Of a DNA stretch of 21,237 nucleotides, positions 4,047 to 19,982 are shown piece after piece (within the stretch, counting starts at the first letter, position 1; each line of letters opens with the position of its first letter). This DNA comes from Aminivibrio sp. GTDB taxonomy: Bacteria; Synergistota; Synergistia; Synergistales; Aminobacteriaceae. The DNA is taken from assembly GCA_018057035.1 (NCBI GenBank), contig JAGPEN010000007.1, forward strand, positions 1 through 21,237. Direction: 5' to 3'. The notes under the pieces were generated by a model. The model searched no databases and had not been told where the DNA came from. It saw nothing but the letters and a program-made list of their open reading frames with translations. Both the position numbers and the translations under genes were made by a program.

Positions 4047-5329
4047 TCCTGTTCCCTGTCGCTCCTGCCGTCTTTTTTCCGAAGCTCCGCAGACCGCTTG
4101 TGGCCGAAAAGGCCCTCGAGATCGGCGAAAGCGGAACATTTTTCCGCAAGGGAATAGGCCCCATCGCGGGAGATTTCCTGGTATGAGCTGACCTTGATGA
4201 AGGTTCCCGCGTACACTCCGTTGGAAAACCGTGCGCACCGGACGGTGGGCAGAATATGGTTCGGGCCGGACACATAGTCCCCGAAAGCCACCGGGGCATA
4301 GGGACCGATAAAGAGGGAGCCGAAATTTGTCAGCTTTTCCGCGGTTTCCCGGCTGTTTTCCGTCATCACCTGGAGGTGCTCCGGGGCGATGTCGTCGGTG
4401 ATTGCCACGGCTTCCTCCAGGGAATCAGCCAGCAGGATCCTTCCGTTGTTCCTCCATGCTTCGAGGGCAAGCTTTCCTGTGGGGAGAACCTCCGCCTGCC
4501 TGAGGATCTCTTCGGAGGTTTTCAGCGCAAGATCCCTGCTGGTGGTCACGATGACCGTCCACGAGTTCGGGTCGTGCTCGCACCGGGCGAGGGTGTCCGC
4601 CGCCACCCACTCAGGCTTTGCCGATCCGTCCGCAATGATGACCACCTCGCTCGGTCCGGCGAGCATGTCAATTCCCACCGACCCGCTCACCTGCCGCTTC
4701 GCTTCGGTCACATACCGGTTTCCGGGGCCGACGATCATGTCGACCGGCATCAATGTTTCTGTTCCAAAGGCGAAAGCCCCAACGGCCTGGGCTCCTCCCA
4801 TGCAGTAGATTTCGTCCACACCGGCAATATCCATGGCCACGAGAACGGCAGGGTGAATGCCCTCCTGCCCCCTGCTCGCCGGAGAACAGGCGGCTATGCG
4901 TTTCACTCCCGCCACCTTTGCGGGAATGGCCGACATGAGCGCCGAGGACGGAAGGGGGTACCTCCCGGCAGGGACATAGCACCCGCACGAAGCCACCGGA
5001 ATCAGGCGATGGCCAAGAACGACCCCGGGGGAGATCTCCCATCGGAGTTCCTTCATGCACTCCTTCTGCTTGATGGCGAAACCGCGGATCCTTCTGGCTG
5101 AGAACTGCAGCGTCTCCACCATTTCACGGGACACTTTCCCGTAGGCCTCCCGGACCGTTTTTTCGTCGACCCGCAGTGCAGAGGGGCGGAAACCGTCAAA
5201 TTTCTCGGTGTAATTCCTGACGGCCTCGTCGCCACCAGACCGGACATCCTCGAGGATGTCCCTCACGGTCTTCTCCACCGACGCGGTTTCCGCTGCTCCG
5301 CTTTTTTCCGCTTCCTTGAATACGATCAT
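4043..5329 (-). CDS. HisD-family NAD-dependent dehydrogenase, probably not histidinol dehydrogenase
   Basis: A 428-residue protein matching histidinol dehydrogenase along its whole length: VGPGNRYVTEAKRQV, AGPSEVVIIAD, APEHLQ (E317, H318), GDYVSGPNH and a C-terminal GHK. Of the four zinc ligands known in E. coli HisD (Q259, H262, D360, H419), the last three are present (H252, D351, H410), but the glutamine position is arginine (R249 in LARCEHD). The entry loop reads CGCYVPAGRYPLPSS, a form I associate with HisD-like catabolic dehydrogenases such as sulfopropanediol 3-dehydrogenase (HpsN). No other histidine gene is nearby. It sits between an SDR dehydrogenase and an ABC importer, so oxidation of an imported diol or sulfonate to an acid is the likely role. 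The substrate is unproven. The start has GGAAGGAG eight or so bases upstream. Confidence 0.85.
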   Translation of the reverse strand: MIVFKEAEKSGAAETASVEKTVRDILEDVRSGGDEAVRNYTEKFDGFRPSALRVDEKTVREAYGKVSREMVETLQFSARRIRGFAIKQKECMKELRWEISPGVVLGHRLIPVASCGCYVPAGRYPLPSSALMSAIPAKVAGVKRIAACSPASRGQEGIHPAVLVAMDIAGVDEIYCMGGAQAVGAFAFGTETLMPVDMIVGPGNRYVTEAKRQVSGSVGIDMLAGPSEVVIIADGSAKPEWVAADTLARCEHDPNSWTVIVTTSRDLALKTSEEILRQAEVLPTGKLALEAWRNNGRILLADSLEEAVAITDDIAPEHLQVMTENSRETAEKLTNFGSLFIGPYAPVAFGDYVSGPNHILPTVRCARFSNGVYAGTFIKVSSYQEISRDGAYSLAEKCSAFADLEGLFGHKRSAELRKKDGRSDREQE

Positions 5330-5350
5330 TTTCCTGCTCCTTCCGGAAGG

Positions 5351-6121
5351 TCAGCTCGCGAGCCAGCCACCGTCGATATAGATGATCTGACCGGTAATAT
5401 AGTCCGAGGCCGAACTGCAGAGAAACACGAGCGTGCCCAGGAGATCTTCGGCAGTACCTACCCTTCCCGCCGGAATGCGCTCCTCGATCCACTGCCTGTG
5501 GCCCGGGTCGAGGAAAAAGGGCTCGGTCATGGGTGTCCTGAAGTATCCCGGCCCCATGGCGTTCACCTGGATATTCGACCGTGCCAGCTCGATGGCCATG
5601 GTCTTCGTGATCTGCACCACTCCGCCCTTGGTTCCGCAGTATACCGAGGACTTCGCCAGGCCGATGGTGCTGCCGAGAGAACCGATGTTCACGATTTTTC
5701 CCCGGCCCTGCTTCGCCATGATCCTGGCCGCCGCCTGGGCGCAGAAAAACACCCCCCTGAGGTTGACGGCCATGATCTTGTCGTACTGTTCTTCCGTCAC
5801 GGAAAGGAAATCGTTGATCTCCTCCACACCCGCGTTATTCACAAGGATATCGAGACTTCCCAGTCTGTCGGCCGCCGCACGGAAACACTCCTGCACTTCG
5901 GCTGGTTTCGTCACGTCAAGGCGGATGCCTTCGGCCCTTCCGCCGGAACGGCGGATTTCGTCCGCTGTTTTTCCGGCGGCTGTTCCGTCGATATCGGCAC
6001 ACACCACTGCTGAGCCCGCCGAAGCAAGCCCCAGAGAATATCCCTTCCCAAGACCGCGGCCCGCGCCGGTCACCACCGCAGTCTTGCCGGCGAGGGAGAA
6101 CTGTTCGAGAAATGCCGTCAT
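5351..6121 (-). CDS. Short-chain dehydrogenase/reductase
   Basis: A 256-residue classical SDR. Visible motifs are the nucleotide-binding TGAGRGLG (residues 18-25), an acidic residue after the second strand (CADID, favouring NAD over NADP), NNAG at 95-98, N120, and the catalytic S148, Y161, K165 (YCGTK). The C-terminal DYITGQIIYIDGGW is typical of gluconate- and polyol-type SDRs. It is the promoter-proximal gene of the operon, 21 bases before the hisD-like gene, so the two dehydrogenases may act on the same imported compound. The start is ambiguous: TTG at 6130 is only three bases from GGAG, while ATG at 6121 is twelve bases away. The ATG is used here because residues before it lie outside the conserved fold. 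Confidence 0.88.
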   Translation of the reverse strand: MTAFLEQFSLAGKTAVVTGAGRGLGKGYSLGLASAGSAVVCADIDGTAAGKTADEIRRSGGRAEGIRLDVTKPAEVQECFRAAADRLGSLDILVNNAGVEEINDFLSVTEEQYDKIMAVNLRGVFFCAQAAARIMAKQGRGKIVNIGSLGSTIGLAKSSVYCGTKGGVVQITKTMAIELARSNIQVNAMGPGYFRTPMTEPFFLDPGHRQWIEERIPAGRVGTAEDLLGTLVFLCSSASDYITGQIIYIDGGWLAS

Positions 6122-6207
6122 GTCAGTCAAAAACTCCTTTTTCCTGTCATTTTTGGAAAACCATTGAAGGAATTCTTTTACCGGAGAACCATCAAAAACA
6201 CTTTAGC

Positions 6208-6351: not shown

Positions 6352-7833
6352 TTACTCCCCTTTTTTCCTCCTGAAGAATTCCATGACAGGGCCTCCGAAA
6401 AAGACGAAAAGGATAAGAAAAATCAGGGTAAGGCAGATCGGGTCGAAGATGAATTCGCCGAGCCTTCCATGGGTTTTGATGAGCCCGACCCTCAGATTGT
6501 TCTCTATCATCGGCCCCAGGATAATGGCGAGAATGAGAGGAGGCAGGGGAATATCGAGGTATTCAAAGAAAAAACCGGCAACGCCGAACGCGGCCATGAT
6601 GTAGATGTCGAAGAAACTGTTTCTGATGGCGTAGGAGCCGATGACCGAGAAGATGAGCACGATGACCATAACGATATTCCGGGGCATTCTCAGGATCTTC
6701 CCGAAAACCTTAATCCCGATAAGCCCAACTGGAATAAGGAAAAGCTGAGAAATCAGTCCAACCGCGAAAATACCGTGAACAAGTTTCAGGTTCTCCTGGA
6801 AAATGAGCGGTCCCGGCCTCAGCCCGTACATGAGCATGGCCCCGAGGACTATGGCCGTGATGGAGTCTCCGGGCACACCGAAAACAAGGGCCGGAATCCA
6901 CGTTCCTCCCAGGGCCGCATTGTTGGCGCTCGTAGGGGCAATGACTCCCTTTATGGATCCCTTCCCGAATTCCTCGGGATTTTTGGATGTCTTTTTCTCC
7001 ATGCCGTAGGCGACCCATGCGGCGATGTCGGCTCCGGCACCGGGAAGGGCGCCGACGCACGTGCCCAGGAGCGAGGCCTTCAAAACGGTCATTTTGTTTC
7101 TGAGAACGATCTTCAGGGTTCCCAAAAGGGAGATGCGTCCGAATTCAGGAATGCTGCTTTTTCCGAGGAGTTTTTGGTCTCCCACGTTCTTGAGTACCTC
7201 GGAGAGGCCGAATAGCCCCACCATGGCGGGTATGAACCCGATTCCTTCCAGAAGCTCCATATTTCCCCCGGTGAACCGGGGAAGCCCGGTGGTGATGTCC
7301 ATCCCCACGGTTGAAACAAGAAGCCCCAGCGTAGCGGACAAAACGCCGTTGAGGGGCCTCCCTGCACTCAGAACGGCGCTCATGCTCAAGCCAAAGATCC
7401 CGAGCCAGAAATACTGGAAGTTGGTGAATTTGAGGGCGAATTTTGCCAGCGGAGGGGCGACCGCCATGAGAAGGAGTATTCCGATGAAGCCTCCTATGGC
7501 GGAACAGAGTAGATCCAGCGAGAGGGCTTCCATGGCGCGGCCCTGTTTGGTCAGTTCATAGCCGTCGAGTGTGGCCGCTCCTGAAGCCGGGGTTCCTGGA
7601 ATCCGAAGCAGGGTCGCAGGTATGTCCCCGGTGAAGATGGACGTGAAGGACACGCCGAGAATCATGGACATTCCTGCGAGTGGTTCCATGTAATAGGTTA
7701 CAGGTATGATGAGGGCCACTCCCATGGTGGCAGTCAGGCCGGGGGTACCTCCAATGAGGACTCCGAAGGCCATGGAAAGGAGCCACGGAAAAAGTATGGC
7801 GGGACGGAAAACAGCGAGTATTTCCTCAAACAT
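6352..7833 (-). CDS. tctA: Tripartite tricarboxylate transporter large permease, TctA family
   Basis: A 493-residue membrane protein with about ten to twelve hydrophobic segments. TctA family landmarks are present: the N-terminal GVLIGGTPGLTATMGVALIIPVTYYM, the segment GDIPATLLRIPGTPASGAATLDGYELTKQGRA and the central repeat-like GALPGAGADIAAWVAYGMEKK. It forms the channel of a TTT importer for carboxylates, driven by an ion gradient and loaded by the TctC protein. It is last in the order tctC-tctB-tctA and is followed by a clear terminator. The start ATG has GGAGGGG ten bases upstream and lies 12 bases after the tctB stop. The substrate class cannot be fixed from sequence. Confidence 0.95.
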   Translation of the reverse strand: MFEEILAVFRPAILFPWLLSMAFGVLIGGTPGLTATMGVALIIPVTYYMEPLAGMSMILGVSFTSIFTGDIPATLLRIPGTPASGAATLDGYELTKQGRAMEALSLDLLCSAIGGFIGILLLMAVAPPLAKFALKFTNFQYFWLGIFGLSMSAVLSAGRPLNGVLSATLGLLVSTVGMDITTGLPRFTGGNMELLEGIGFIPAMVGLFGLSEVLKNVGDQKLLGKSSIPEFGRISLLGTLKIVLRNKMTVLKASLLGTCVGALPGAGADIAAWVAYGMEKKTSKNPEEFGKGSIKGVIAPTSANNAALGGTWIPALVFGVPGDSITAIVLGAMLMYGLRPGPLIFQENLKLVHGIFAVGLISQLFLIPVGLIGIKVFGKILRMPRNIVMVIVLIFSVIGSYAIRNSFFDIYIMAAFGVAGFFFEYLDIPLPPLILAIILGPMIENNLRVGLIKTHGRLGEFIFDPICLTLIFLILFVFFGGPVMEFFRRKKGE

Positions 7834-7845
7834 TTCAGGCCCCTC

Positions 7846-8310
7846 CTACCATGGAAGTCCCAGCTCGCCGAGAGGAAGCTGTATCTGAAACAGGCGGCCG
7901 AAGACAAGAAGAATAAAAACCACCGAAAAAATTGTCACCGTGAGGGCTTTCAGCAATCCTACCCTGAGACGGAGAAGAAGAAACATGGAAAAAAGAACGG
8001 TGGAAAGAGCATATCCCATCCATTGCATAAGCTGAACATACACGGCAAGGGACAGAATGACGATCGCCCCGTTGGCCGCTCCGGGACCCCATCCCCTGCC
8101 GGCGGTTTCCGGCCCGGACCTCAGGGCCGAAACCACCTGGTGCAGCCCGCACGGAATCAGCACCACGGAAAGAAGCACCGGGAAAAAAGCCGGGCCGGGG
8201 ATTTTCTTTCCGGCCGAAACTGCCTCGGGAAAGGTGGAACTGGTGCGGATGACCCACAGGGAAACAAGGACCAAAGATACGCCGAAGAGTATTCTCAGAG
8301 TTTTTTTCAT
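7846..8310 (-). CDS. tctB: Tripartite tricarboxylate transporter small permease, TctB family
   Basis: A 154-residue protein with four hydrophobic segments: one near the N-terminus (ILFGVSLVLVSLWVI), one at about 41-60, and two in the C-terminal half. A loop follows the first helix with GPAFFPVLLSVVLIPCG, typical of TctB. It assists the large TctA subunit at the membrane. The start ATG is preceded by GGAGGCTGTCA. Another open frame over the same bases has no membrane pattern and is a shadow. Confidence 0.9.
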   Translation of the reverse strand: MKKTLRILFGVSLVLVSLWVIRTSSTFPEAVSAGKKIPGPAFFPVLLSVVLIPCGLHQVVSALRSGPETAGRGWGPGAANGAIVILSLAVYVQLMQWMGYALSTVLFSMFLLLRLRVGLLKALTVTIFSVVFILLVFGRLFQIQLPLGELGLPW

Positions 8311-8325
8311 TGACAGCCTCCGGAA

Positions 8326-8362
8326 GAAAGGGCACCCCGCCGGAATGCGGCGGGGTGCTTTC
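8326..8362 (-). other. Strong intergenic hairpin between tctC and tctB
   Basis: GCACCCCGCC (8332-8341) pairs with GGCGGGGTGC (8349-8358) around a 7-base loop. An outer GAAA/TTTC extension pairs across a two-base bulge. It lies just downstream of the binding-protein gene in the direction of transcription. There is no T-run after it on the minus strand, so it is more likely an mRNA-stabilising or partial-termination element than a full terminator. Such elements let the binding protein be made in excess over the permeases. Confidence 0.75.
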
Positions 8363-8375
8363 CCTTGTAAAGGTA

Positions 8376-9341
8376 CTATTTTTTAAGATATCCGCCCAGC
8401 TCCATGACGTTTTTCAGGTCAGTATCCTGCTGGCGGGCGAATTCAGCGAACTCCTTCGGACCGCGGACCAGTAAGCCGAAGCCGTTCTTGCTCATAAACT
8501 CCTTGTATTCACCGGAATCGGTAATCTTTTTCATTGCGTTGTACAGGACATCAATTACTTCAGCAGGAGTGCCCTTCGGGACGGCAAATCCCCGCCACGT
8601 TCCGGCCGACCAGTCGATGCCGCTTTCTTTCAGTGTCGGAACGTCCGGGAAAGCGGGATCCCGGGAATCGGCCATAATGGCCAGGGGCCGTATTTCTCCG
8701 GCCGAAATCTGGGAGGCCGCTTCGGGAAGACTGCAGGTGATTACCTCCACGTGACCTCCGAGAAGCTCGATGATCGAAGGAGCGGCTCCCGTAGTGGGGA
8801 TCCAGCTGACGGCATTGACGGGAATGCCGGCCTTGTCGAGCATCCCTATCCGTGCAAGGTCCCACACGCCGCCGGCAGCAGTTCCCGAGAACTTGAACTT
8901 TTCGGGATTTGCCTTCACCGCTTCAAGAAGTTCACCGAGGTTCTTCCAGGGAGCGTCAGCCTTCACCATCACCCCGGCAGGGTCCTGGTTCAGCTGGATC
9001 ACGTAGTCGAAATCCGCGTAGGTAAGCTCCGTCAGGCCCATCCAGTGCATGGTGGCCAGTTCCAGGGTCACCATGGTGATCGTATAACCGTCCGGTTTTG
9101 AAAAGGCTCCTGCCGAATGGCCGACAGCGCCGTTGCCGCCCGTCTTGTTCGTGACGGGGAAAGGCTTGCCGAGTTCCTTTTCGAGCTGGGAAGCCATGAA
9201 ACGGGTCAGCCTGTCCGTTCCGCCGCCCGCTCCCCAGGGGCAGACGACGGATACGCTCCTTTCAGGGAAGGCGGCAAAGGCAGCCGAGGCCAGAAAAACG
9301 AAAAGGAACGAAAACATCAGTATCCGGGACATCTTTCTCAT
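8376..9341 (-). CDS. tctC: Tripartite tricarboxylate transporter substrate-binding protein, TctC/BUG family
   Basis: A 321-residue exported protein. The signal peptide reads MRKMSRILMFSFLFVFLASA with likely cleavage at AFA/AFPE. Directly after it comes the BUG-family start: FPERSVSVVCPWGAGGGTD, then LGKPFPVTNKTGGNGAVG, the loops that hold carboxylate ligands through backbone amides. Length is normal for the family. The ATG at 9341 was chosen because GGGAG lies ten bases upstream; ATG at 9332 is the alternative, and longer versions would place residues before the signal peptide. It is the first gene of the operon, divergent from rocD across a 325-base control region. The ligand is unknown; its position hints at a carboxylate linked to amino-acid breakdown. 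Confidence 0.93.
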   Translation of the reverse strand: MRKMSRILMFSFLFVFLASAAFAAFPERSVSVVCPWGAGGGTDRLTRFMASQLEKELGKPFPVTNKTGGNGAVGHSAGAFSKPDGYTITMVTLELATMHWMGLTELTYADFDYVIQLNQDPAGVMVKADAPWKNLGELLEAVKANPEKFKFSGTAAGGVWDLARIGMLDKAGIPVNAVSWIPTTGAAPSIIELLGGHVEVITCSLPEAASQISAGEIRPLAIMADSRDPAFPDVPTLKESGIDWSAGTWRGFAVPKGTPAEVIDVLYNAMKKITDSGEYKEFMSKNGFGLLVRGPKEFAEFARQQDTDLKNVMELGGYLKK

Positions 9342-9666: not shown

Positions 9667-10893
9667 ATGATGACTCGTTACACATCAGACGAACTGATGA
9701 AAATGGAGCATGAATATGGTGCCCACAACTACCACCCGTTGGAAGTTGTCATTTCCAAGGCAGAGGGCATCTGGGTCGAAGATCCGGAAGGCCGCCGCTA
9801 TATGGACATGCTCTCGGCATACTCGGCAGTGAACCAGGGACACCGGCATCCGAAGATCATCAAGGCACTCAAGGATCAGGCCGATATCCTCACACTCACC
9901 TCGAGGGCATTCTTCAACGACAAGTGGCCCCTCTTCGCCCAAAAACTCGCCGGTGTTACAGGGAAAGAAATGATCCTCCCCATGAACACCGGTGCTGAAG
10001 CTGTCGAAACGGCCATCAAGACCATGAGGAAATGGGGCTACATGGTCAAGGGCGTTGAAAAGGACAAAGCAGAAATCATTGTCTTCGCCGATAATTTCCA
10101 CGGCAGAACGGTCACCATCATCTCCTTCTCCGTCGATCCCGATGCGAAGGAAAATTACGGACCCTTCACCCCGGGATTTGTCGTCGTCCCCTACGACAAC
10201 CTCGAAGCGGTGGAAAAGGCCGTGAATAAAAATACGGTCGGCATTCTCGTGGAACCCATCCAGGGAGAGGCCGGCGTGGTCGTGCCGAGCGAAGGATTCC
10301 TCAAGGGACTTGAATCCATCGCCAGGAAGAACAACCTTCTCCTCGCGGTGGATGAGATCCAGACGGGATTCTGCCGCACGGGAAAGACCTTCGCCTTCCA
10401 GCATGAAGGGATCACGCCCGACATCATCATCATGGGCAAGGCTCTGGGCGGCGGAGTGATGCCGGTCTCCGCCATCGCGGCCGACAAGAATGTGCTTGAA
10501 GTGTTCCTTCCCGGAACCCACGGCTCGACTTTCGGAGGGAACCCCCTCGCCTGCGCCGTGGCGTCCGCCTCGATCGACGTCCTCATCGAGGAGAAGCTGG
10601 CCGAACGCTCCGCAGAGCTCGGCGCCTATTTCATGGAGGGCATCAGGGCGCTCAAATCCCCCAAGATCAAGCTGGTCAGGGGAAAGGGCCTTCTCATCGG
10701 CGTAGTGCTCCACGAATCGGCCGGAAAAGCGAGGAAATACACCACCGCTCTCAAGGAAAAGGGCCTTCTCTGCAAGGAGACCCACAACTGGATTATCCGG
10801 TTTGCTCCCCCACTGGTAATAACAAAACAGGAGATCGACATCGCCCTCGGGAAGATGGCGGAGGTCTTCTGCGGAGTAGAGGCGAAAGCATAG
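9667..10893 (+). CDS. rocD: Ornithine--oxo-acid aminotransferase
   Basis: A 408-residue class III PLP aminotransferase. It has the RocD-specific opening YGAHNYHPLEVVIS and MDMLSAYSAVNQGHRHPKI, the substrate segment NTGAEAVETAIKTMRKWGY, the phosphate/aromatic segment NFHGRT, the cofactor aspartate in AVDEIQTGFCRTG, and the PLP lysine K258 in IIMGKALGGG. Length matches Bacillus RocD (about 400). It moves the delta-amino group of ornithine to 2-oxoglutarate, giving glutamate semialdehyde and glutamate in the cytoplasm. ATG 9667 with GAGGTG upstream is used; ATG at 9670 is equally possible. It stands alone between a divergent tct operon and a strong terminator. The RocB-like gene in the minus-strand operon nearby supports a shared ornithine/arginine pathway. 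Confidence 0.95.
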   Translation: MMTRYTSDELMKMEHEYGAHNYHPLEVVISKAEGIWVEDPEGRRYMDMLSAYSAVNQGHRHPKIIKALKDQADILTLTSRAFFNDKWPLFAQKLAGVTGKEMILPMNTGAEAVETAIKTMRKWGYMVKGVEKDKAEIIVFADNFHGRTVTIISFSVDPDAKENYGPFTPGFVVVPYDNLEAVEKAVNKNTVGILVEPIQGEAGVVVPSEGFLKGLESIARKNNLLLAVDEIQTGFCRTGKTFAFQHEGITPDIIIMGKALGGGVMPVSAIAADKNVLEVFLPGTHGSTFGGNPLACAVASASIDVLIEEKLAERSAELGAYFMEGIRALKSPKIKLVRGKGLLIGVVLHESAGKARKYTTALKEKGLLCKETHNWIIRFAPPLVITKQEIDIALGKMAEVFCGVEAKA

Positions 10894-11065: not shown

Positions 11066-12097
11066 GTGCGCTACCTTCCATTCGGCAGCACAGGCGCCAT
11101 CGTTTCGGAACTCGGATTCGGCGGCATTCCCATCATCAGGCTCACTACCGAGGATGCGGTTCGGGTCCTCAAAAGGGCCTATGACAGGGGAATCACTTTC
11201 TTCGACACCGCGAATTCCTACGAAGGAAGCGAAGAAAAAATTGGATCAGCCCTGTCCGGCGTTCGCGAGAAAATCTTCATCGCCACCAAGAGCAAGAACC
11301 GGGACGGAAAAGGCGTGACAGAGCATATTGACCTCAGCCTGAAACGAATGAAGACCGACTATGTCGATCTTTTCCAGTTCCACCAGGTCGTCCAGGAGAA
11401 GGACTGGCAGGCCATCATCGCTCCCGGCGGAGCTCTCGGCGCAGCGCTGGAAGCCCGGCGGCAGGGGAAGGTCCGGTTCATCGGCATCACGTCCCACGGC
11501 ATCCCCACGGCTCTGAAGGCCATCTCCACGGGAAAGTTCGTCTCCATCCAGTTCCCGTTCAATTTCATAGAAACGGGAGCTGCGGAGACACTCCTCCCCC
11601 TCGCCCAAAAAATGGGTCTCGCCTTCATCGCCATGAAGCCCTTCGCGGGTGGGGCCATCAGCGACGCCTCCCTCGCCTTCAAATTTCTGAGGTCCCATCC
11701 GTACATCCTGCCCATCCCAGGGTACGACTCGGTGGAATCCGTCGACCAGGTGACGTCTTTCTACGAATCGCCCAACACTGTGAGCGATGATGACCGCCGG
11801 GCCATGGAATCCATCGCGGACACCATGGGGAAGGCATTCTGCCGCAGGTGCGAGTACTGCCAGCCGTGCCCCCACGGAGTTTCGATCACTCTCGGCATGA
11901 CCTACCCCCTGCTCGCTTCCCGAATGTCGCCGAAGGTGGCATGCGGGTACGTGACAAAGGCTCTCGAAACGCTCCCCCAGTGCGTGGAATGCGGCGCCTG
12001 CCTGCCGAAATGTCCCTACAACCTTCCCATTCCCGACATGCTGAAAAAGCACTACGCCCTGTTCAGGGAACACCAGAGGTTCTATCACAACGAATAG
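11066..12097 (+). CDS. Aldo/keto reductase with C-terminal iron-sulfur cluster domain
   Basis: A 343-residue two-domain protein. Residues 1-245 are an NAD(P)-dependent aldo/keto reductase barrel with the complete catalytic tetrad D47, Y52, K75, H106. Residues 255-320 hold two cysteine groups, C259/C262/C265/C268 (CRRCEYCQPCPHG) and C306/C309/C312/C316 (CVECGACLPKCPYNLPIP), the ferredoxin-like tail found in anaerobe members of the family, able to hold 4Fe-4S. It may couple carbonyl reduction or alcohol oxidation to a low-potential electron carrier; the physiological substrate is not known. Start is GTG with AAGGAG about nine bases upstream; no ATG gives the full barrel. It is a single-gene unit between the rocD terminator and a convergent hairpin. 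Confidence 0.92.
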   Translation: MRYLPFGSTGAIVSELGFGGIPIIRLTTEDAVRVLKRAYDRGITFFDTANSYEGSEEKIGSALSGVREKIFIATKSKNRDGKGVTEHIDLSLKRMKTDYVDLFQFHQVVQEKDWQAIIAPGGALGAALEARRQGKVRFIGITSHGIPTALKAISTGKFVSIQFPFNFIETGAAETLLPLAQKMGLAFIAMKPFAGGAISDASLAFKFLRSHPYILPIPGYDSVESVDQVTSFYESPNTVSDDDRRAMESIADTMGKAFCRRCEYCQPCPHGVSITLGMTYPLLASRMSPKVACGYVTKALETLPQCVECGACLPKCPYNLPIPDMLKKHYALFREHQRFYHNE

Positions 12098-12160: not shown

Positions 12161-13822
12161 TCAGTTCCCGGCCCGGTTTTTTTCGATGATCTTTTTCACG
12201 AGAAACGCCAGAAGATGGGGAAACACTTCCAGAGTGTACCTGAGGTGGATCCTTTCCGTGTTCTTGTGGGCATCCCTGCCGAGGGGGCCGAGGTTCAGCA
12301 CCGGGATGTCGAGCTCGGCGAGGGCATCGGTGGGAAGGCTGTACAGCTTTCCCCAGCCCGGCATGTTGCGCGCGAAAACGTCCATTTCCGATGGCGGCCC
12401 CTGGAAGCCGCAGTAGCTCAGGTCGGAAACGCCTTCAAAAAAGGGACGGAGCTGCAGCGTTTCTCCGAACCTGATCTCCCCCTCCCGCACCGTCTCTCCT
12501 GCCGCCCACGCTGCGGTGCGCTCTCTCTCTGAATCTCCGAGGCTGCTCCTGTGGGGGTACCAGGGCGGCAGGAAACCGACAACCACAAGGGGACCGGCGA
12601 GACCGCACAGTTCAACCATGGCCTCGACAAGGGCGATTGCCCGGTCCCTCTCGTCGGCATCTTTGGTCCCCGAGGCAAGAGATTCCTCAACAAAAAGATC
12701 GAAATTGCTCCCAAGCAAATCCGCCGCCATGCGTGATAGATCGGCGAAATCAATCACCCGGGGATTCCAGTTCCCTGGAGGATTTTTTGTTCCGTCAAGG
12801 GAAGAGAACGCTTCGGCGTTCTTCCGGTACCGGCTGATGGACTGGTCAAGGGCCTTGGCGGCTATGGAACGCATGTCCGAAAGTATTTGCCCGGGCAGCC
12901 TGGTTGCCGTGAGATAACTGTAGAATGCGAAACCGCGTGTCATTATGGTCGCGGAATACTCCCGGCGGAGATCCGTCTGGCGCATACAGCCGAAAGGCGG
13001 ATAAGACCTGCCGAAAAGGGAGTCCGCATACTCAGGGTTGCCGTCGAGCATGAGGTTGATGTGTGACAGGATGGGGGCGGCACAAAATCCTTCGTAGTAT
13101 TCCCCTACATGAGTTTCCTTGCCGGCGCAGAAGAAAAAAGGATTGATTTTACCTATGCTTCCAAGGTATATTGATATTTTTGCCTCCCCGCCGGCGGCGA
13201 ATGTGGGTTCGAGCATGACGCATGCCAGGAATCGCAGCCCTTCCTCTTTCTGGATGCGCGCCAGGAATGACGCAGCGGACAGCATGCCGCATGAATTGTT
13301 TTCCTCGTCGGGGACGGCGAGAAAGGCTATGTTCGCCCCGAGCCCCGTGCCGTCCCCGGCAGCCCGCATCAGCAGTTCCATGCCGCCGGCAAGCCCGCTC
13401 TTCATATCGGCAACGCCCCGTCCGAAAAGCCACTCCCCCGTTTCGAGATCCTTCCGCACCTCCGGGGAAATATCCGCAGCCCGAATCCTCTCTGTATATT
13501 CCTCCGGATCGAATGCAAATGGAGCGAGGGAACCGCATGCCTGAACCCCCACCACGTCCATATGCCCGGCAAGCAGCACCGTTTCGGCGGTGGGTTCCGG
13601 CGCCCTCACCATGGCGAAGACGAAATGTCTTCCCAGGGGGTCGTTGTCCAGCGGCAGAAGGCGGATGTCTTCCGGGTGCCCGCGGAAATAGGGCTGCACC
13701 GAAAGAGTATCGAAGATAAAGCGTGCGATTGCGTTCTCGCCCTCCCGTGAAGGGGAAACGCTCCTGAATTTCACTAGATCGGTCAGAAGCCTGTACAGTT
13801 CGCTGCCTTCATATCTGTTCAT
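12161..13822 (-). CDS. RocB-like M20 family peptidase/deacylase
   Basis: A 553-residue protein of the M20 zinc hydrolase superfamily, close in length and layout to arginine-utilisation protein RocB (about 560). M20 metal and catalytic positions are visible: H87 and D89 in AGHMDVVG, D139 in GRGVADMKSGLAGG, and E173/E174 in PDEEN. A C-terminal histidine lies in GRDAHKNTERIHLRY. The biochemical activity of RocB is not settled; M20 relatives hydrolyse N-acyl or peptide bonds of amino acids. It is last in the iclR-TRAP-opine dehydrogenase operon, 23 bases after the preceding stop. ATG 13822 has GGGAAAGG upstream; GTG 13849, which overlaps the previous stop as GTGA, is an alternative adding nine residues. 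Confidence 0.88.
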   Translation of the reverse strand: MNRYEGSELYRLLTDLVKFRSVSPSREGENAIARFIFDTLSVQPYFRGHPEDIRLLPLDNDPLGRHFVFAMVRAPEPTAETVLLAGHMDVVGVQACGSLAPFAFDPEEYTERIRAADISPEVRKDLETGEWLFGRGVADMKSGLAGGMELLMRAAGDGTGLGANIAFLAVPDEENNSCGMLSAASFLARIQKEEGLRFLACVMLEPTFAAGGEAKISIYLGSIGKINPFFFCAGKETHVGEYYEGFCAAPILSHINLMLDGNPEYADSLFGRSYPPFGCMRQTDLRREYSATIMTRGFAFYSYLTATRLPGQILSDMRSIAAKALDQSISRYRKNAEAFSSLDGTKNPPGNWNPRVIDFADLSRMAADLLGSNFDLFVEESLASGTKDADERDRAIALVEAMVELCGLAGPLVVVGFLPPWYPHRSSLGDSERERTAAWAAGETVREGEIRFGETLQLRPFFEGVSDLSYCGFQGPPSEMDVFARNMPGWGKLYSLPTDALAELDIPVLNLGPLGRDAHKNTERIHLRYTLEVFPHLLAFLVKKIIEKNRAGN

Positions 13823-13845
13823 TTTTTTTGCCTTTCCCGGGAACG

Positions 13846-15057
13846 TCACTCCGAATAGACACCTTCCCTCAGATATGCATTCAGCATCTGCCTGTCCATA
13901 CGGGCAATTCCAAGATCTTCCAGGGTGACGCCCGTTTTCCGGAAATCAGTTCCCGTCATAACGGAGGCCAGCGTTATCATAGATTCAATCACCGGCACAT
14001 CCACTCCGAACTTTTTTGCCAGTTCGCTGAAAATATGGCATCCCACGGGAATATCCTCCGTAATATACCTGTTGTGGATCGTAAAGGGCCCTGTACCCAG
14101 CGCAAGAGTGTACTGCTCGTTGAAGGGGACCTCGAACTTCTCCCCCATGTGCTCGGCCCCCAGTATATTCGACCGGGAGAAAAAGGCCTTCTCCGGGAAA
14201 TCCTGGATCCCCACACCCATGGCTTCGGCAATGGCGCATTCCTCCCGGTACAGGGCAAGCTGCACCCGTGAAATGGACGGACAGTAGGCATGGGAGTAAA
14301 TGGAGAAATCGTACTTGTTCTCACCGTAGACCACGCCCCAGTTCTCCATGGCGCCCACTCCCAGGATGGTTCCCGGGCAGTGCAGTATGGGATTGACGTT
14401 GCTGAACCCTATGTCCGCTATCGTATCGCCCCGGACAGGGTGGACCACTGAATCCAGGGAAGGCACGAACTCCTTTGACGCGAAAAAGGCATCCTGGTCC
14501 GTCATGGGCAGCGCGGCGCCCCGGAGGCTTATGGCCCAGTAGTTGACGCTTACCTCTGGCATCTGTTCCCCTCCGGCCATTTTTATCCGGATGCCGTAGG
14601 GCTGACTGCTCCATTCCCCCACGATGACCTTTTTGCTGCATCCGGCCTCACGCATCATTTTGCGCAGAAGGAGAGAACCGAAGTTCGCCGTAGTGAAGTG
14701 GATGGCCATTCCGTCCTCGAGGCAGGGAATGAGCTTCTCGAGGAACGCCCTGTACCCAACTGCCGGGAAGCTTATAATCACTATCCCTGCCCCCTCGACA
14801 GCTTCCTTTATGTCGTTGGTGACCACGTCTATTTTGGCAAGCCCCTCTCGCTTGAATCCGTACAGGCTTTCCTGTTTTCCGCTGACGCGGATCTCCCTGT
14901 TCTTCGCTATACACCCGAGACCGCCAAAAAAGTCGGGAAGCTCGTACAGCCGAACCTCCCTGCCGGCAAGGGCCGTGCACGCGGCATGGCCCCTGGCCGT
15001 GGCTCCTCCTCCGAGGACTGCGACGGGCCTGTTCCCGAGATATTCCATCCCATTCAT
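13846..15057 (-). CDS. Opine dehydrogenase (octopine/nopaline dehydrogenase family)
   Basis: A 403-residue protein. The N-terminal Rossmann fold starts PVAVLGGGATARGHAACTAL (residues 11-30), followed by RLYELPDF. The C-terminal half has the opine dehydrogenase pattern around SNVNPILHCPGTILG, with the catalytic-type histidine, then YSHAYCPSISRVQLALYREE and a helical tail. The family reversibly joins or splits an amino acid and a 2-oxo acid using NAD(P)H. In an operon with an importer, oxidative splitting of an imported opine is likely, giving an amino acid plus pyruvate or 2-oxoglutarate. The ATG has AGGAGG seven bases upstream and lies 11 bases after the dctM stop. Neighbouring rocB- and rocD-like genes suggest ornithine or arginine as the amino part. 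Confidence 0.88.
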   Translation of the reverse strand: MNGMEYLGNRPVAVLGGGATARGHAACTALAGREVRLYELPDFFGGLGCIAKNREIRVSGKQESLYGFKREGLAKIDVVTNDIKEAVEGAGIVIISFPAVGYRAFLEKLIPCLEDGMAIHFTTANFGSLLLRKMMREAGCSKKVIVGEWSSQPYGIRIKMAGGEQMPEVSVNYWAISLRGAALPMTDQDAFFASKEFVPSLDSVVHPVRGDTIADIGFSNVNPILHCPGTILGVGAMENWGVVYGENKYDFSIYSHAYCPSISRVQLALYREECAIAEAMGVGIQDFPEKAFFSRSNILGAEHMGEKFEVPFNEQYTLALGTGPFTIHNRYITEDIPVGCHIFSELAKKFGVDVPVIESMITLASVMTGTDFRKTGVTLEDLGIARMDRQMLNAYLREGVYSE

Positions 15058-15068
15058 GGCATAACCTC

Positions 15069-16373
15069 CTATAGTCTGCCCCCGAGCACAAGCCGGGGAA
15101 GCCAGAGTGCAAGCTCCGGAATGTACGTGACCAGCAGAAGCGTGGGAAGCCAGGCAAACACTATAAATATCATTGCCGGCTTCATCATCTGTGAAACAGG
15201 CGTCTTCGCCATCCGCCCGCCGAAATAGAGCGTGGGCGCAGTAGGCGGAGTCACGTTTCCGAGTCCCAGGTTGGTTCCTATGATCGCCGCGAAGTGGATC
15301 GGGTGGATCCCGAGCGAAACCACGACCGGAAGCAGAATGGGCGTGCACAGCAACATGGCGCTCACGTCATCCATTATCATTCCGATGATGATCATGAAGA
15401 TATTGATCATGAGCATAATAACGTACTTGTTGCTGGAGATTGCCGTGAGGAAGGCTATGATCATGGCCGGAAGCCGCTCCTGGACATAAATCCGACTCAG
15501 CATCATGATGCAGTACATCATGAGCATGACGACTCCCGTAGTCGTCGCAGTCTCGATAATCACCTCGATAAAATTGTTCCGGTTCAGCCCCCTGTAGATC
15601 AGGAATCCCACCGGTATGGAGTACAGAACGGCAACCGCCGCCGCCTCCGTCGGGGTCATGATGCCGCCGTAAATGCCGCCGAGCACGATCACAGGCATGA
15701 AAAGGGCAGGAACCGCCTTTTTCCCGCGGCTTCCGAGAAGCTCGACCTTCTCCTGGAAGGTGATCTGCGGCGTCACGTTTATGTTGGGGTCGTTCCTCAG
15801 CAGAATGAGGTTCAGAATGCTGAGAAGGATCATGAGCACGATCCCCGGCCCGACGGTGGCAAGAAAACACGCGAGCACCGACTGCTGCCCCACCCACGCG
15901 AACAGGATCATCTGGGAACTCGGGGGGATCAGCAGGCCCAGGGGTGCCGCGCAGGATACCAGGGCGGCACTGTGCCCCATGGGATAGCCGTTTTCCCGGA
16001 GACGGGGGAACATGATGGAGCCGATGCACGAAAGGGTCGCGGCACAGCTTCCGGAAATGGACCCGAACACCGCACACGAGACCACGGCCACGACTCCCAG
16101 GCCTCCCTTTATCCGCCCGACGAACACATCGACGAAATTGACAAGGGACGTGCCGATGCCTCCCCTGTCCATCATACCGCCGACCATGATAAAAAGCGGA
16201 ATGGCGAGAAGCACAATGGAACTCATCTGGCTGAATCCGTAGGGAAGAAGGAACGACGGGTCGTAGCCGTGGGTTATCACCATGAAGGTGGTTGAAAGCA
16301 TAAAACAGAAAGGAACCGGCAGCCCGAGAAGAAGGGTAATGATAATCAGCAGAAGTGCAATGGTAATTGCCAT
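15069..16373 (-). CDS. dctM: TRAP transporter large permease, DctM family
   Basis: A 434-residue membrane protein with about twelve hydrophobic segments. DctM features include the N-terminal LLGLPVPFCFMLSTTFMV, AIPLFIMVGGMMDRGGIG, VFGSISGSCAATLSCIG and the later GMIMDDVSAMLLCTPILLPV and GNVTPPTAPTLYF. It is the ion-coupled transport subunit of a TRAP importer. The start ATG has GGAGGAAA upstream; a longer open frame ahead of it covers the 70-base gap to dctQ and is not coding. It sits directly before the opine dehydrogenase gene. Confidence 0.95.
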   Translation of the reverse strand: MAITIALLLIIITLLLGLPVPFCFMLSTTFMVITHGYDPSFLLPYGFSQMSSIVLLAIPLFIMVGGMMDRGGIGTSLVNFVDVFVGRIKGGLGVVAVVSCAVFGSISGSCAATLSCIGSIMFPRLRENGYPMGHSAALVSCAAPLGLLIPPSSQMILFAWVGQQSVLACFLATVGPGIVLMILLSILNLILLRNDPNINVTPQITFQEKVELLGSRGKKAVPALFMPVIVLGGIYGGIMTPTEAAAVAVLYSIPVGFLIYRGLNRNNFIEVIIETATTTGVVMLMMYCIMMLSRIYVQERLPAMIIAFLTAISSNKYVIMLMINIFMIIIGMIMDDVSAMLLCTPILLPVVVSLGIHPIHFAAIIGTNLGLGNVTPPTAPTLYFGGRMAKTPVSQMMKPAMIFIVFAWLPTLLLVTYIPELALWLPRLVLGGRL

Positions 16374-16443
16374 AGGCGTTTCCTCCAGATTTCGGCCGCG
16401 GCCCGACAGTATCCTCCGGGGCCGTGACCGGGGTAGACTCAGC

Positions 16444-16965
16444 TCAGGATGTTCCCTCCTGCGCTCCGGACAAGAAACTGAAAAGGCCGTCGAAAAAATG
16501 GACCACTGCATAGAAGGACATGAGTGCGTATCCGGCGAGCACCGAAGACTGGGAAATAAAAACCGGTATCCGCAGCCCTGTCGTCCGGGGCATCCACTCG
16601 ATGCTGTACAGTACCATGTCAACTGCCCACACGGTGAACAGAATGCACAGGACTGCCATGGTCATGTCCATAACAACCGCGAGGAGCGCTCTTCCCCTGG
16701 GGGGAAGAAACTGGGGAATAATGTCCGCCTTCACGTGGCTCTGGTCATAGACGCCATAAGAACTTCCCATGAAATAGAGCCAGAAGGCAGCGATAACCAC
16801 GATCTCCTCCATGCCGAAAAGGTCGGATTTGAACACGTACCGCAGCAGCACGGTCACGCACATGATGAGGACAACAAAAAGGCTGCTCAGCACCAGAAGA
16901 GCGCGCTGCAGCCAGAGGATGAACTTCCAGGCAGAAGAATTTTTGACTGCGTCCAAAAATCTCAA
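16444..16965 (-). CDS. dctQ: TRAP transporter small permease, DctQ family
   Basis: A 173-residue protein with four membrane segments, including LVLSSLFVVLIMCVTVLLRY and IVVIAAFWLYFMGSSYGVYD. The charged turn DQSHVKADII after the second helix is the DctQ family mark. It joins the DctM subunit to the binding-protein cycle. The start is taken as TTG at 16965 because GGAGGG lies eight bases upstream and the length is then normal. GTG at 17010 would put the start inside a hairpin with no ribosome site. Confidence 0.88.
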   Translation of the reverse strand: MRFLDAVKNSSAWKFILWLQRALLVLSSLFVVLIMCVTVLLRYVFKSDLFGMEEIVVIAAFWLYFMGSSYGVYDQSHVKADIIPQFLPPRGRALLAVVMDMTMAVLCILFTVWAVDMVLYSIEWMPRTTGLRIPVFISQSSVLAGYALMSFYAVVHFFDGLFSFLSGAQEGTS

Positions 16966-16982
16966 TGGGGATCCCTCCAGGC

Positions 16983-17010
16983 GTGCCGGGCAGCCATCGC
17001 CGCCCGGCAC
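16983..17010 (-). other. Intergenic hairpin between dctP and dctQ
   Basis: GTGCCGGGC (16983-16991) pairs with GCCCGGCAC (17002-17010), and three more inner pairs are possible. It begins ten bases after the dctP stop, with no T-run beyond. Like the tctC-tctB hairpin it sits directly after a binding-protein gene, suggesting 3'-end protection or partial termination that favours the binding protein. Confidence 0.7.
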
Positions 17011-17020
17011 GAAGAGTGTA

Positions 17021-18037
17021 TTACTTCAGAGATTCTTTTATTTTGTCCAGCGTTTCCTTTCCGTAGGTCTTTTCCAGTTTGGGCCACGTGGTGTTCCGTA
17101 TTGTTTCGGCGAGTTCGGCCATCTCCTTCTCGGGGATTGGAATGATCTTGACGCCGAAATCGGCCAGTTTTTTCTGGAACTCTATATCCTCCGCTTTGCT
17201 GTCTGCAAAACTCTTGTCCGCTTGCTCATTTACAGCTTTTAAAATTACTTTCTGGTCGGCCTCGGAAATCTGGTCCCAGACCTTTTTGCCCACGATGTAG
17301 GCCGTCTGGTCGAACAGGCAGTTGTAGGGAACGTAGAATTTAATCACGTCCCGGAAGCTCAGGTAGTTGATCTGGGACGATCCGCCGATCCATCCGTCGC
17401 AGACCCCGGTCTGGATGGCGCTGTATGTATCGGCATAGGGAATGGAAGTCGTCCGGAAGCCGAGATCCTCGGCGGTTTCCTTGTACACCGCCAGGGGGGC
17501 GACACGGATCATGGCGTCCTTGGGCATGCCGGCCTTGAGAGGGTTCGCGGGTTCTTTCGCCAGGCCGACACCCACAAAACCGTCACCGTAGATACGGAGG
17601 AGATTGACGCCCAGTTTATCCAGGGATTTCTCGATAATGTCATAGACCACTGACCCGGGGGAAAGCTGCTTCTGCATTCCTTCACCCGTCTCGGCAAGGA
17701 AGGGAAGAGAGCCGACTTCAAGCATCAGGTCGAACTGGCTTGGAAGGAAAATGAGTCCCATCTCGATGGTCCCACGCCGGATCTCCTCGAACACCTGGGT
17801 ATAGTCTCCAAGCTGGTTGGCAGGGAAGAGGTCGAGGATAATCCGCCCCTCGGTTTCTTTTTCAACCACTTCCTTGATGGCAAAAAGCGATTTTGTACCC
17901 CTGTACTCCGGCGCTGAAATGCCGGCCACTTTCAGCGTCATCGGTTTGGCGAAAGAAGGGACTGCAGCGGAGGAAAGAAAAATCGCTCCCAGGATAAAAA
18001 TACCCAGCATCCGGTACGCCATGCTCTTCCTAACCAT
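17021..18037 (-). CDS. dctP: TRAP transporter substrate-binding protein, DctP family
   Basis: A 338-residue exported protein. The signal peptide (MVRKSMAYRMLGIFILGAIF, then LSSAAVPSFA) is cleaved near SFA/KPM. The mature part has the DctP pattern: KEVVEKETEGRIILDLFPANQLGDYTQVFEEIRRGTIEMG, and a central MIRVAPLAVYKETAEDLG whose arginine is at the place that normally salt-bridges the ligand carboxylate. YSAIQTGVCDGWIGG also fits. It delivers a carboxylate-bearing ligand to DctQM. Opine dehydrogenase and the RocB-like enzyme downstream suggest an opine or N-substituted amino acid as ligand. ATG 18037 has AAGGAG about ten bases upstream. It follows iclR by 81 bases without an obvious terminator. 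Confidence 0.93.
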   Translation of the reverse strand: MVRKSMAYRMLGIFILGAIFLSSAAVPSFAKPMTLKVAGISAPEYRGTKSLFAIKEVVEKETEGRIILDLFPANQLGDYTQVFEEIRRGTIEMGLIFLPSQFDLMLEVGSLPFLAETGEGMQKQLSPGSVVYDIIEKSLDKLGVNLLRIYGDGFVGVGLAKEPANPLKAGMPKDAMIRVAPLAVYKETAEDLGFRTTSIPYADTYSAIQTGVCDGWIGGSSQINYLSFRDVIKFYVPYNCLFDQTAYIVGKKVWDQISEADQKVILKAVNEQADKSFADSKAEDIEFQKKLADFGVKIIPIPEKEMAELAETIRNTTWPKLEKTYGKETLDKIKESLK

Positions 18038-18118
18038 ATGAATCACTCCTTTTTTTAAATGGTTTGATCCCCGGGAAAACGCAGTGCGCGAATCCCCTGT
18101 ATTCTGCCCCCCCTTCAT

Positions 18119-18871
18119 CTAGTGCCTGTATCTGAAACTGAATGAAATTTCTTCCGCACCCTTTTTCAGAATATGGATCCACTCGGGAATTTTCTCCTCC
18201 GGAAGGTGGTGCTTGGGAGCCGAAAGACCAAGGCTGGCAATGACAACGCTTTCCTGGGCGAAAATCGGAACGGCCAGCGTAATCTCCCCCAAGGTGAACG
18301 TTTCGTCTTCGAGGGCATAGCCCCTCTCTCGGATCTTTCCGTACTCCTCCAGCAGGCTATCCCTGTCCATAATCGTGAAGGGCGTTCTTTTCTCAAATTC
18401 CGCCGTACTCAGAATTTTCCTTATCATCGCCCCATCCTGGTACGCACAGAGAACCATTGCCGAGCCTCCGGAATTCAGAGGGATGCTTTTCCCGATAAAA
18501 TCAGCGGCATCGTAGCAGCCGCCCCGCACGGCGTTTTTATAGGCCGGAAACGCCCGGTCTCCTTCCCAGACGGTAATGTAGGTGGTCTCTCCAAGCGTAC
18601 GGGAAATGTATGAAAGAACAGGCCGGGTGATCTCTTCGATCCCCTTCAGGCGGCCATATACATTGCCGAGGCGGATCATGATTGGGCTGAGATGGTATTT
18701 TTTCGTAAGAAAATCCTGGATAACAAAATTATGGGTCTGGAGGGTTTTCAGTATTTTAAAAGCGCCGCTTTTCCCGATGCCAACAAAAGAGGCGAGCTCT
18801 GAAAGGTTGAATTCGTAAGGAGGGTCTCCCAAGTGCTTCAATATGGACATGGCTTTATCGAGACTGCCCAT
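18119..18871 (-). CDS. IclR-family transcriptional regulator
   Basis: A 250-residue regulator. Residues 1-65 are a winged helix (DKAMSILKHLG, LSELASFVGIGKSGAFKILKTLQTHNFV) and residues 75-245 an IclR effector domain (LGETTYITVWEGD, GKSIPLNSGGSAMVLCAYQ, RGYALEDETFTLGEITLAVPIFA). It probably senses the imported substrate or a product and controls the TRAP-opine operon, of which it is the first gene. ATG 18871 has AGGAGG five bases upstream; the longer open frame has no ribosome site. A palindrome at 18891-18908 in its own leader is a plausible autoregulatory site. Whether it activates or represses cannot be told from sequence. Confidence 0.93.
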   Translation of the reverse strand: MGSLDKAMSILKHLGDPPYEFNLSELASFVGIGKSGAFKILKTLQTHNFVIQDFLTKKYHLSPIMIRLGNVYGRLKGIEEITRPVLSYISRTLGETTYITVWEGDRAFPAYKNAVRGGCYDAADFIGKSIPLNSGGSAMVLCAYQDGAMIRKILSTAEFEKRTPFTIMDRDSLLEEYGKIRERGYALEDETFTLGEITLAVPIFAQESVVIASLGLSAPKHHLPEEKIPEWIHILKKGAEEISFSFRYRH

Positions 18872-19739: not shown

Positions 19740-19829
19740 GGAGAAGTGCCCGAGTGGTCGAAGGGGATTGACTCGAAATCAATTGGGCGGCTTGCTGCCC
19801 CGTGGGTTCGAATCCCACCTTCTCCGCCA
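19740..19829 (+). tRNA. tRNA-Ser, anticodon CGA
   Basis: The acceptor GGAGAAG pairs with CTTCTCC, discriminator G, and CCA is encoded. The anticodon stem ATTGA/TCAAT encloses the loop CTCGAAA, giving anticodon CGA (reads UCG). A long variable arm is present, as for all serine tRNAs, and the T arm GTGGG/CCCAC is fully paired around TTCGAAT. Confidence 0.96.
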
Positions 19830-19894: not shown

Positions 19895-19982
19895 GGAGAA
19901 GTGGCCGAGTGGTCGAAGGCGGGCGCTTGGAGAGCGTCTGAACCGTGAGGTTCCGTGGGTTCGAATCCCTCCTTCTCCGCCA
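19895..19982 (+). tRNA. tRNA-Ser, anticodon GGA
   Basis: The acceptor GGAGAAG/CTTCTCC matches that of the first tRNA, with discriminator G and encoded CCA. The anticodon stem GGCGC/GCGTC holds the loop TTGGAGA, giving GGA (reads UCC/UCU). The variable arm is AACC-GTGA-GGTT. The T stem is GTGGG against CCCTC, which leaves one U-U mismatch at the second pair. Its 3' end directly adjoins an integrase gene, so it is the probable attachment site of an integrated element. Confidence 0.95.

Follow-up and report, generated by a model that had tools for sequence, protein, structure and literature searches.

Which compounds are handled by an operon that joins an opine-dehydrogenase-family gene to a TRAP carrier and to a RocB-type hydrolase gene? 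This question is raised by a stretch of 21,237 nucleotides from Aminivibrio sp. of the Synergistota (contig JAGPEN010000007.1, positions 1 to 21,237), hereafter the window. Six head-to-tail genes run from 18871 to 12161 on its minus strand, namely iclR, dctP, dctQ, dctM, a gene of the opine dehydrogenase family PF02317 (gene and protein are both termed ODH here), and rocB; TRAP denotes the DctPQM carrier. The link of this cassette to ornithine catabolism was well supported by genomes from three phyla. As to its function, the chances appear about even that the cassette is regulated and serves to break down ornithine-type amino acids with a blocked nitrogen.

Organization of the operon

The genes and signals of the operon are as follows.

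18119 to 18871, minus strand: IclR-family regulator of 250 amino acids, first gene of the operon (PF01614, 95.2 bits; PF09339, 30.1 bits)
17021 to 18037, minus strand: DctP, TRAP solute-binding protein (PF03480, 125.2 bits)
16444 to about 16965, minus strand: DctQ, TRAP small permease (PF04290, 90.2 bits), with the TTG start at 16965 picked by eye
15069 to 16373, minus strand: DctM, TRAP large permease (PF06808, 289.3 bits; TIGR00786, 341.8 bits, cut-off 268.45)
13846 to 15057, minus strand: ODH of 403 amino acids (PF02317, 111.8 bits, cut-off 30)
12161 to 13849 (GTG start) or to 13822 (alternative ATG start), minus strand: RocB-type M20 metallohydrolase (PF01546, 47.9 bits, cut-off 24.6)
18954 to 18926, minus strand: sigma-70-like promoter match 5' of iclR, 10/12, with TG before the second hexamer (consensus match only)
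12133 to 12104, minus strand: terminator-like hairpin of 13 pairs with a T run, 3' of rocB (pattern match)

An earlier reading of the sequence alone (the sequence-only reading) had described an operon of a regulator, a TRAP importer, an opine dehydrogenase, and a RocB-like M20 hydrolase, and all six genes were indeed present at these positions. The three TRAP subunits adjoin one another, and PF03480, PF04290, and PF06808 were all matched above the curated cut-offs. A single transcript is expected for the six genes because of their spacing: iclR and dctP are 81 bases apart, ODH follows dctM after 11 bases, and the GTG start of rocB overlaps the end of ODH by 4 bases. Single terminator-like or promoter-like sites are weak evidence, since shuffled sequence also gave 8.2 and 3.3 of them, respectively, against 13 and 9 in the whole stretch.

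The iclR-TRAP-ODH-rocB order was found again at locus L139, at the near-identical L001, and in genomes G002 (twice) and G026; a further locus, in G043, covers dctP to the rocB start only, and its order was identical. This recurrence suggests that the operon is more than a chance arrangement. The closest public locus found was L001, from a Synergistaceae metagenome-assembled genome (MAG), with 97% identity for ODH and 95% for RocB. Relatives of the IclR protein (49-94%) were located at the cassette head in L139-L144 and L176.

Ornithine genes around the cassette

The operon had also been proposed to feed ornithine catabolism, and this proposal gained support from spirochaete, atribacterial, and Synergistota genomes. 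First, in the spirochaete MAG G004 (locus L007), ODH (79%) starts 9 bases past the gene of Or-4 (600.6 bits, cut-off 600), which is preceded by genes of OrtB (809, cut-off 550) and OraE (1342, cut-off 800) and by a 119-amino-acid gene in the oraS place. Another contig of this MAG carries DctP (56%), a DctQ-like protein, DctM (82%), RocB (50%), a TrmB-like regulator, OrtA (128.8, cut-off 70), and the first part of OrtB; on its opposite strand we observed Ord (442.7, cut-off 400) and an ornithine-racemase-like protein scoring 434.9, under its cut-off of 480. In a second spirochaete MAG (G007), DctM, RocB, and a TrmB-like protein lie on one contig, and another contig holds the TrmB-like protein, OrtA (117.6), OrtB (790.5), the 119-amino-acid gene, OraE (1343), Or-4 (615.3), and ODH. 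These two contigs share 224 overlapping bases (99.1%). In both MAGs, TRAP-rocB thus stands before, and ODH after, the ornithine-fermentation genes, an arrangement made somewhat less certain by the contig breaks. The ODH match in G007 is split into residues 3-238 and 280-402, so this copy may be damaged. ODH as a replacement of Ord in the spirochaete pathway was rejected for G004, which has Ord; it may still apply in G007, where only a relative under the cut-off was found (242.1).

The end position of ODH in this run would also fit a reductive role, in which ODH would join ornithine, alanine, or a similar amine to a 2-oxo acid such as pyruvate and thereby dispose of NADH during amino-acid fermentation. 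Mollusc opine dehydrogenases dispose of NADH by such a condensation, and Synergistota largely ferment amino acids. In addition, the OCS and NOS reactions are possibly reversible in vitro according to the available text of PMC4575208. However, this explanation would make the carrier a bystander, it leaves the linked importer and hydrolase unexplained, and the six-gene operon contains no further transporter for opine export. We regard it as very unlikely.

Second, an atribacterial MAG (L008) was found to carry, in direct succession on one strand, ornithine carbamoyltransferase (430, cut-off 281), a GABA-type aminotransferase, a PyrR-like protein (named by eye), an ArgE/DapE-type M20 protein (222.7, cut-off 217.6), DctPQM, ODH, and an incomplete second aminotransferase. 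A search of this genome for RocB at E 1e-20 was negative.

Finally, 185 Synergistota genomes were surveyed. Among the 20 with the TRAP carrier, RocD exceeded its curated cut-off in 9 and OraE in 5, and no genome had the two together. RocD or OraE occurred in 14/20 TRAP genomes against 23/165 other Synergistota (p 2.7e-7) and, among RocB carriers, in 13/19 TRAP genomes against 22/83 others (p 9e-4), and the co-occurrence of RocB with RocD was 28/29 (p 1.3e-7); these p-values are guides only, because the genomes share ancestry.

Conservation of the gene set

ODH was found in 20 of the 185 genomes (E <=1e-100) and RocB in 102 (E <=1e-60). DctM orthologues (79-98% identity) were located at 20 places and one partial place in 20 genomes. 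TRAP-ODH-rocB was present at 6 of these 21 places (G001, G031, two copies in G002, G043, where rocB is interrupted by the contig end, and G026). At one more (G003), dctM-ODH meets the contig end, and another contig holds the remaining part of ODH together with an aminotransferase and rocB. TRAP-rocB stood without ODH at ten places (G022, G027, G028, G029, G030, G110, G111, G113, G114, and G116); the entire cassette with IclR was seen in G022, G028, G029, G111, and G116, and the other five were scored by dctM-rocB adjacency alone. A looser ODH search (E 1e-8) was negative for eight of these ten genomes; the other two have a relative at 26-27%. Three places had ODH without adjoining rocB: G006 and G024 combine TRAP and an aminotransferase with a divergent ODH, and G186 shows dctM-ODH-aminotransferase up to the contig end. 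In G180, the contig stops after dctM, so that ODH and rocB are not visible. A distant version in G133 forms a one-strand run of ODH (45%), DctP (51%), a DctQ-like protein, DctM (69%), an RpiR protein, an aminotransferase, and RocB (40%).

Hence, the survey that the sequence-only reading called for did not bear out the full set as a conserved unit: iclR-TRAP-ODH-rocB-rocD as one unit was rejected, since ODH was missing at 10/21 places and rocD lay near the cassette at only two (G001 and G031). The more constant combination is that of the carrier with RocB; the presence of ODH varies. In the window itself, the genes next to the operon are as follows.

9667 to 10893, plus strand: RocD, ornithine aminotransferase, outside the operon (TIGR01885, 539.6 bits, cut-off 378.4)
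11066 to 12097, plus strand: aldo/keto reductase with a C-terminal 4Fe-4S region, convergent with rocB (domain matches)

The rocD gene is thus near the operon, as had been claimed, but outside it, because it lies on the plus strand and past the convergent aldo/keto reductase gene. Tripartite tricarboxylate-type carrier genes (6352-9341, minus strand; named by eye) adjoin rocD.

The ODH-less places are what would be expected if RocB were the sole key enzyme, with the carrier importing citrulline or an N-acyl-ornithine, RocB making ornithine as a citrullinase or deacylase, and ODH acting as a side enzyme on another amine. RocB is described as a probable citrullinase in the accessible part of a review (PMC4813224), and its fold is near those of N-acyl diamino-acid deacylases. 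Importing citrulline only, however, would leave ODH a bystander, and where ODH is present it is tightly coupled to rocB and dctM, as its overlap and short gap indicate. ODH also recurs where the ornithine run of the spirochaetes ends, and it accompanies TRAP in the atribacterial MAG, for which the RocB search at E 1e-20 was negative. This alternative is rather unlikely in our estimate.

RocB, DctP, and ODH

No RocB model was found in NCBIfam by hmmscan. The name was taken partly from what relatives are called in their source records ('arginine utilization protein RocB'); these relatives include several JGI rows and the protein of Aminivibrio pyruvatiphilus (88%), the nearest relative bearing it. 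Its other basis is an identity of 31.5-33.7% over 94-99% of the query to the M20 proteins of 10 listed plasmid rows, which themselves bear no RocB name. Residues H87, D89, D139, E173, E174, E205, H238, and H519 were invariant across 53 rows; we take these to be the M20 metal and catalytic residues, and the protein to be a COG4187-type M20 member with the DapE/ArgE/LysK fold. RocB therefore appears, as judged from its residues, to be an intact M20 metallohydrolase. Ctu and CtlX, which are citrullinases, are members of different protein families, as far as the available text of PMC9007349 describes them.

For a RocB tree, duplicates, rows containing a stop, and matches shorter than 420 residues were removed, which left 50 rows, and six truncated rows were then taken out, leaving 44; the contig of L189 has only part of dctM, and this row was therefore given the TRAP-linked label by hand. 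A single clade of TRAP-linked RocB was rejected, as the tree needs six label changes on these 44 rows. A second RocB paralogue (41-44%) was observed in L156, L157, and L158 (G001:C13). RocD (86-87%) directly follows it in L156 and L157 and does not in L158, and LIV-type ABC genes (assigned by eye) come after it in L156 and L158. Window-type RocB (52-68%) without TRAP occurred in L145-L148 and L151 (G187, G188, G182, G181, and G183), near aminotransferase class I/II proteins, whose families were verified on L148 only.

Arg178 of DctP was the same residue in all 50 aligned rows, and it aligns with the arginine of the LRVPDAATN stretch of SiaP, to which we ascribe a role in carboxylate binding.

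In ODH, His226, Asp335, and Arg330 are conserved and lie opposite His202, Asp297, and Arg292 of 1bg6; the His, the Asp, and the arginine of NRYxxED are presumably the catalytic residues of PF02317 opine dehydrogenases. The only solved relatives by sequence search were 1bg6 (CENDH, E 1.2e-21) and two distinct octopine dehydrogenase sequences (3c7a/3iqd, E about 2e-8). ODH thus shares the family and the conserved catalytic stretch with these enzymes, at a distant level of similarity only. The searches made turned up no characterised member of its own clade.

The wider ODH family (L013-L080, most relatives at 52-59% identity) was found in other surroundings. Over 80 loci, where the counts are lower bounds, the neighbours included MttB at at least 32, a racemase-like protein at at least 35, and PanB at at least 22. 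In acetogens and sulfate reducers, MttB-family methyltransferases, an Asp/Glu-racemase-like protein, PanB, corrinoid proteins, and BCCT carriers adjoin ODH, and in Lachnospiraceae, MetNIQ-like ABC genes, a racemase, and an aminotransferase do. These neighbourhoods suggest an undescribed amine pathway. An archaeal MAG, Candidatus Hermodarchaeum yapensis (L012), has an ODH at 66% in a locus without a match to the window TRAP or RocB. A 4650-base contig is shared by L003 and L005, binned as Synergistales and as Phycisphaerales; since the contig is identical, one of the bins is contaminated.

The surroundings of the wider ODH family, with MttB, racemase-like, and PanB genes rather than those for ornithine, would agree with a system for an unrelated N-substituted or hydroxy acid, beside which the ornithine genes are incidental. 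DctP, too, was about equally near to different kinds of solved binding proteins. Against this, RocD, OraE/OrtAB, or ornithine carbamoyltransferase flank the cassette in three phyla, and the co-occurrence is strong, so that we consider such a system improbable.

Proposed pathway

Given the gene order, the conserved residues, the shared carrier, and the ornithine context described above, we infer a pathway in which the imported ligand, the direction of ODH, the activity of RocB, and the order of the steps are all presumptive. First, an N-substituted ornithine (or arginine or citrulline) compound would be imported by the TRAP carrier, in which the arginine of DctP would bind a carboxylate. Two enzymes would then take off different blocking groups: RocB, or another M20 protein, may hydrolyse an N-acyl/amide or ureido bond, and ODH, where present, may oxidise off an N-(carboxyalkyl) group with NAD(P)+ to give the amino acid and a 2-oxo acid. 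Finally, as the gene context suggests, ornithine would pass to RocD in the lineage of the window, or enter the Orr/OraSE/Ord/OrtAB route in other hosts. Two keys and one carrier of this kind would explain why the same carrier is found with RocB alone, or with ODH plus either another M20 protein or an aminotransferase.

A narrower version, TRAP-fed opine catabolism of anaerobes in which a 2-oxo acid and ornithine are the products of an NAD-type ODH and RocB, RocD or OraSE/OrtAB is the outlet, and RocB acts as an N-deblocking hydrolase for ornithine derivatives, is put forward tentatively, with less than even prospects. Several observations weigh against the ornithine pathway: ODH is missing from nearly half of the orthologous TRAP places (10/21, with one further place not visible), 6/20 TRAP genomes have neither RocD nor OraE, the TRAP label changes repeatedly on the RocB tree, and the frequent MttB, corrinoid protein, PanB, racemase-like, and MetNIQ-like neighbours suggest that ODH relatives serve other amines.

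Comparison with known systems

Opine catabolism in Agrobacterium and Pseudomonas (occ/noc, OoxAB/NoxAB, OdhABC) uses ABC permeases and a flavin-containing multi-subunit dehydrogenase, according to the portion of PMC4575208 available. The proposed pathway would resemble it in importing an opine, in splitting it oxidatively into a 2-oxo acid and a basic amino acid, and in passing ornithine on to catabolic enzymes. In contrast, the window has a TRAP carrier, an NAD(P)-type PF02317 protein, and a coupled RocB-type hydrolase; neither an ABC opine permease nor a flavin-containing dehydrogenase was found among the six operon genes.

With the Bacillus roc (arginase) system, the window shares near-full-length M20 homology to Bacillaceae plasmid copies, and RocB and RocD co-occur in Synergistota. 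Bacillus roc has the permeases RocC/RocE and arginase in the part of PMC4813224 at hand, whereas the window RocB is tied to a TRAP carrier.

The oxidative ornithine fermentation of Clostridia (Orr, OraSE, Ord, and OrtAB; available text of PMC8803604) is matched in both spirochaete MAGs by OrtA, OrtB, OraE, and Or-4 over their cut-offs, and by Ord in G004. Unlike the clostridial cluster, the spirochaete run has TRAP-RocB before it and ODH after it. No OraSE, OrtAB, or Ord was found in the ten window proteins scanned; in G001, the nearest genome to the window, OraE over the cut-off was not found and Ord was present. In the literature searched, we found no paper pairing 'opine dehydrogenase' with 'RocB', 'TRAP transporter', or 'MttB'.

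Other features

Elsewhere in the window, a HisD-like dehydrogenase, a short-chain dehydrogenase/reductase, and a sugar-type ABC carrier (the carrier named by eye) occupy 413-6130 on the minus strand. A tandem tRNA-Ser pair (cga, gga) lies at 19740-19829 and 19895-19982 on the plus strand. Outside the window, an ornithine-racemase-like protein (L178:7439-9253, minus strand) resembles the arginase family in its C-terminal part (PF00491, 35.1 bits), where the metal-binding motif looks altered by eye.

Implications

RocB is named for arginine utilisation, its reaction being unproven, and here it occurs with a dedicated carrier. Its place beside a known ornithine pathway in two spirochaete MAGs narrows its substrate so far that a small set of compounds would suffice to test it. 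If RocB is an N-deblocking hydrolase for ornithine derivatives, its open role would be settled. If ODH is degradative, the cassette would represent a way of using opines that dispenses with the flavin enzyme found in known systems, and it might give anaerobes of sediments and digesters access to animal and plant opines.

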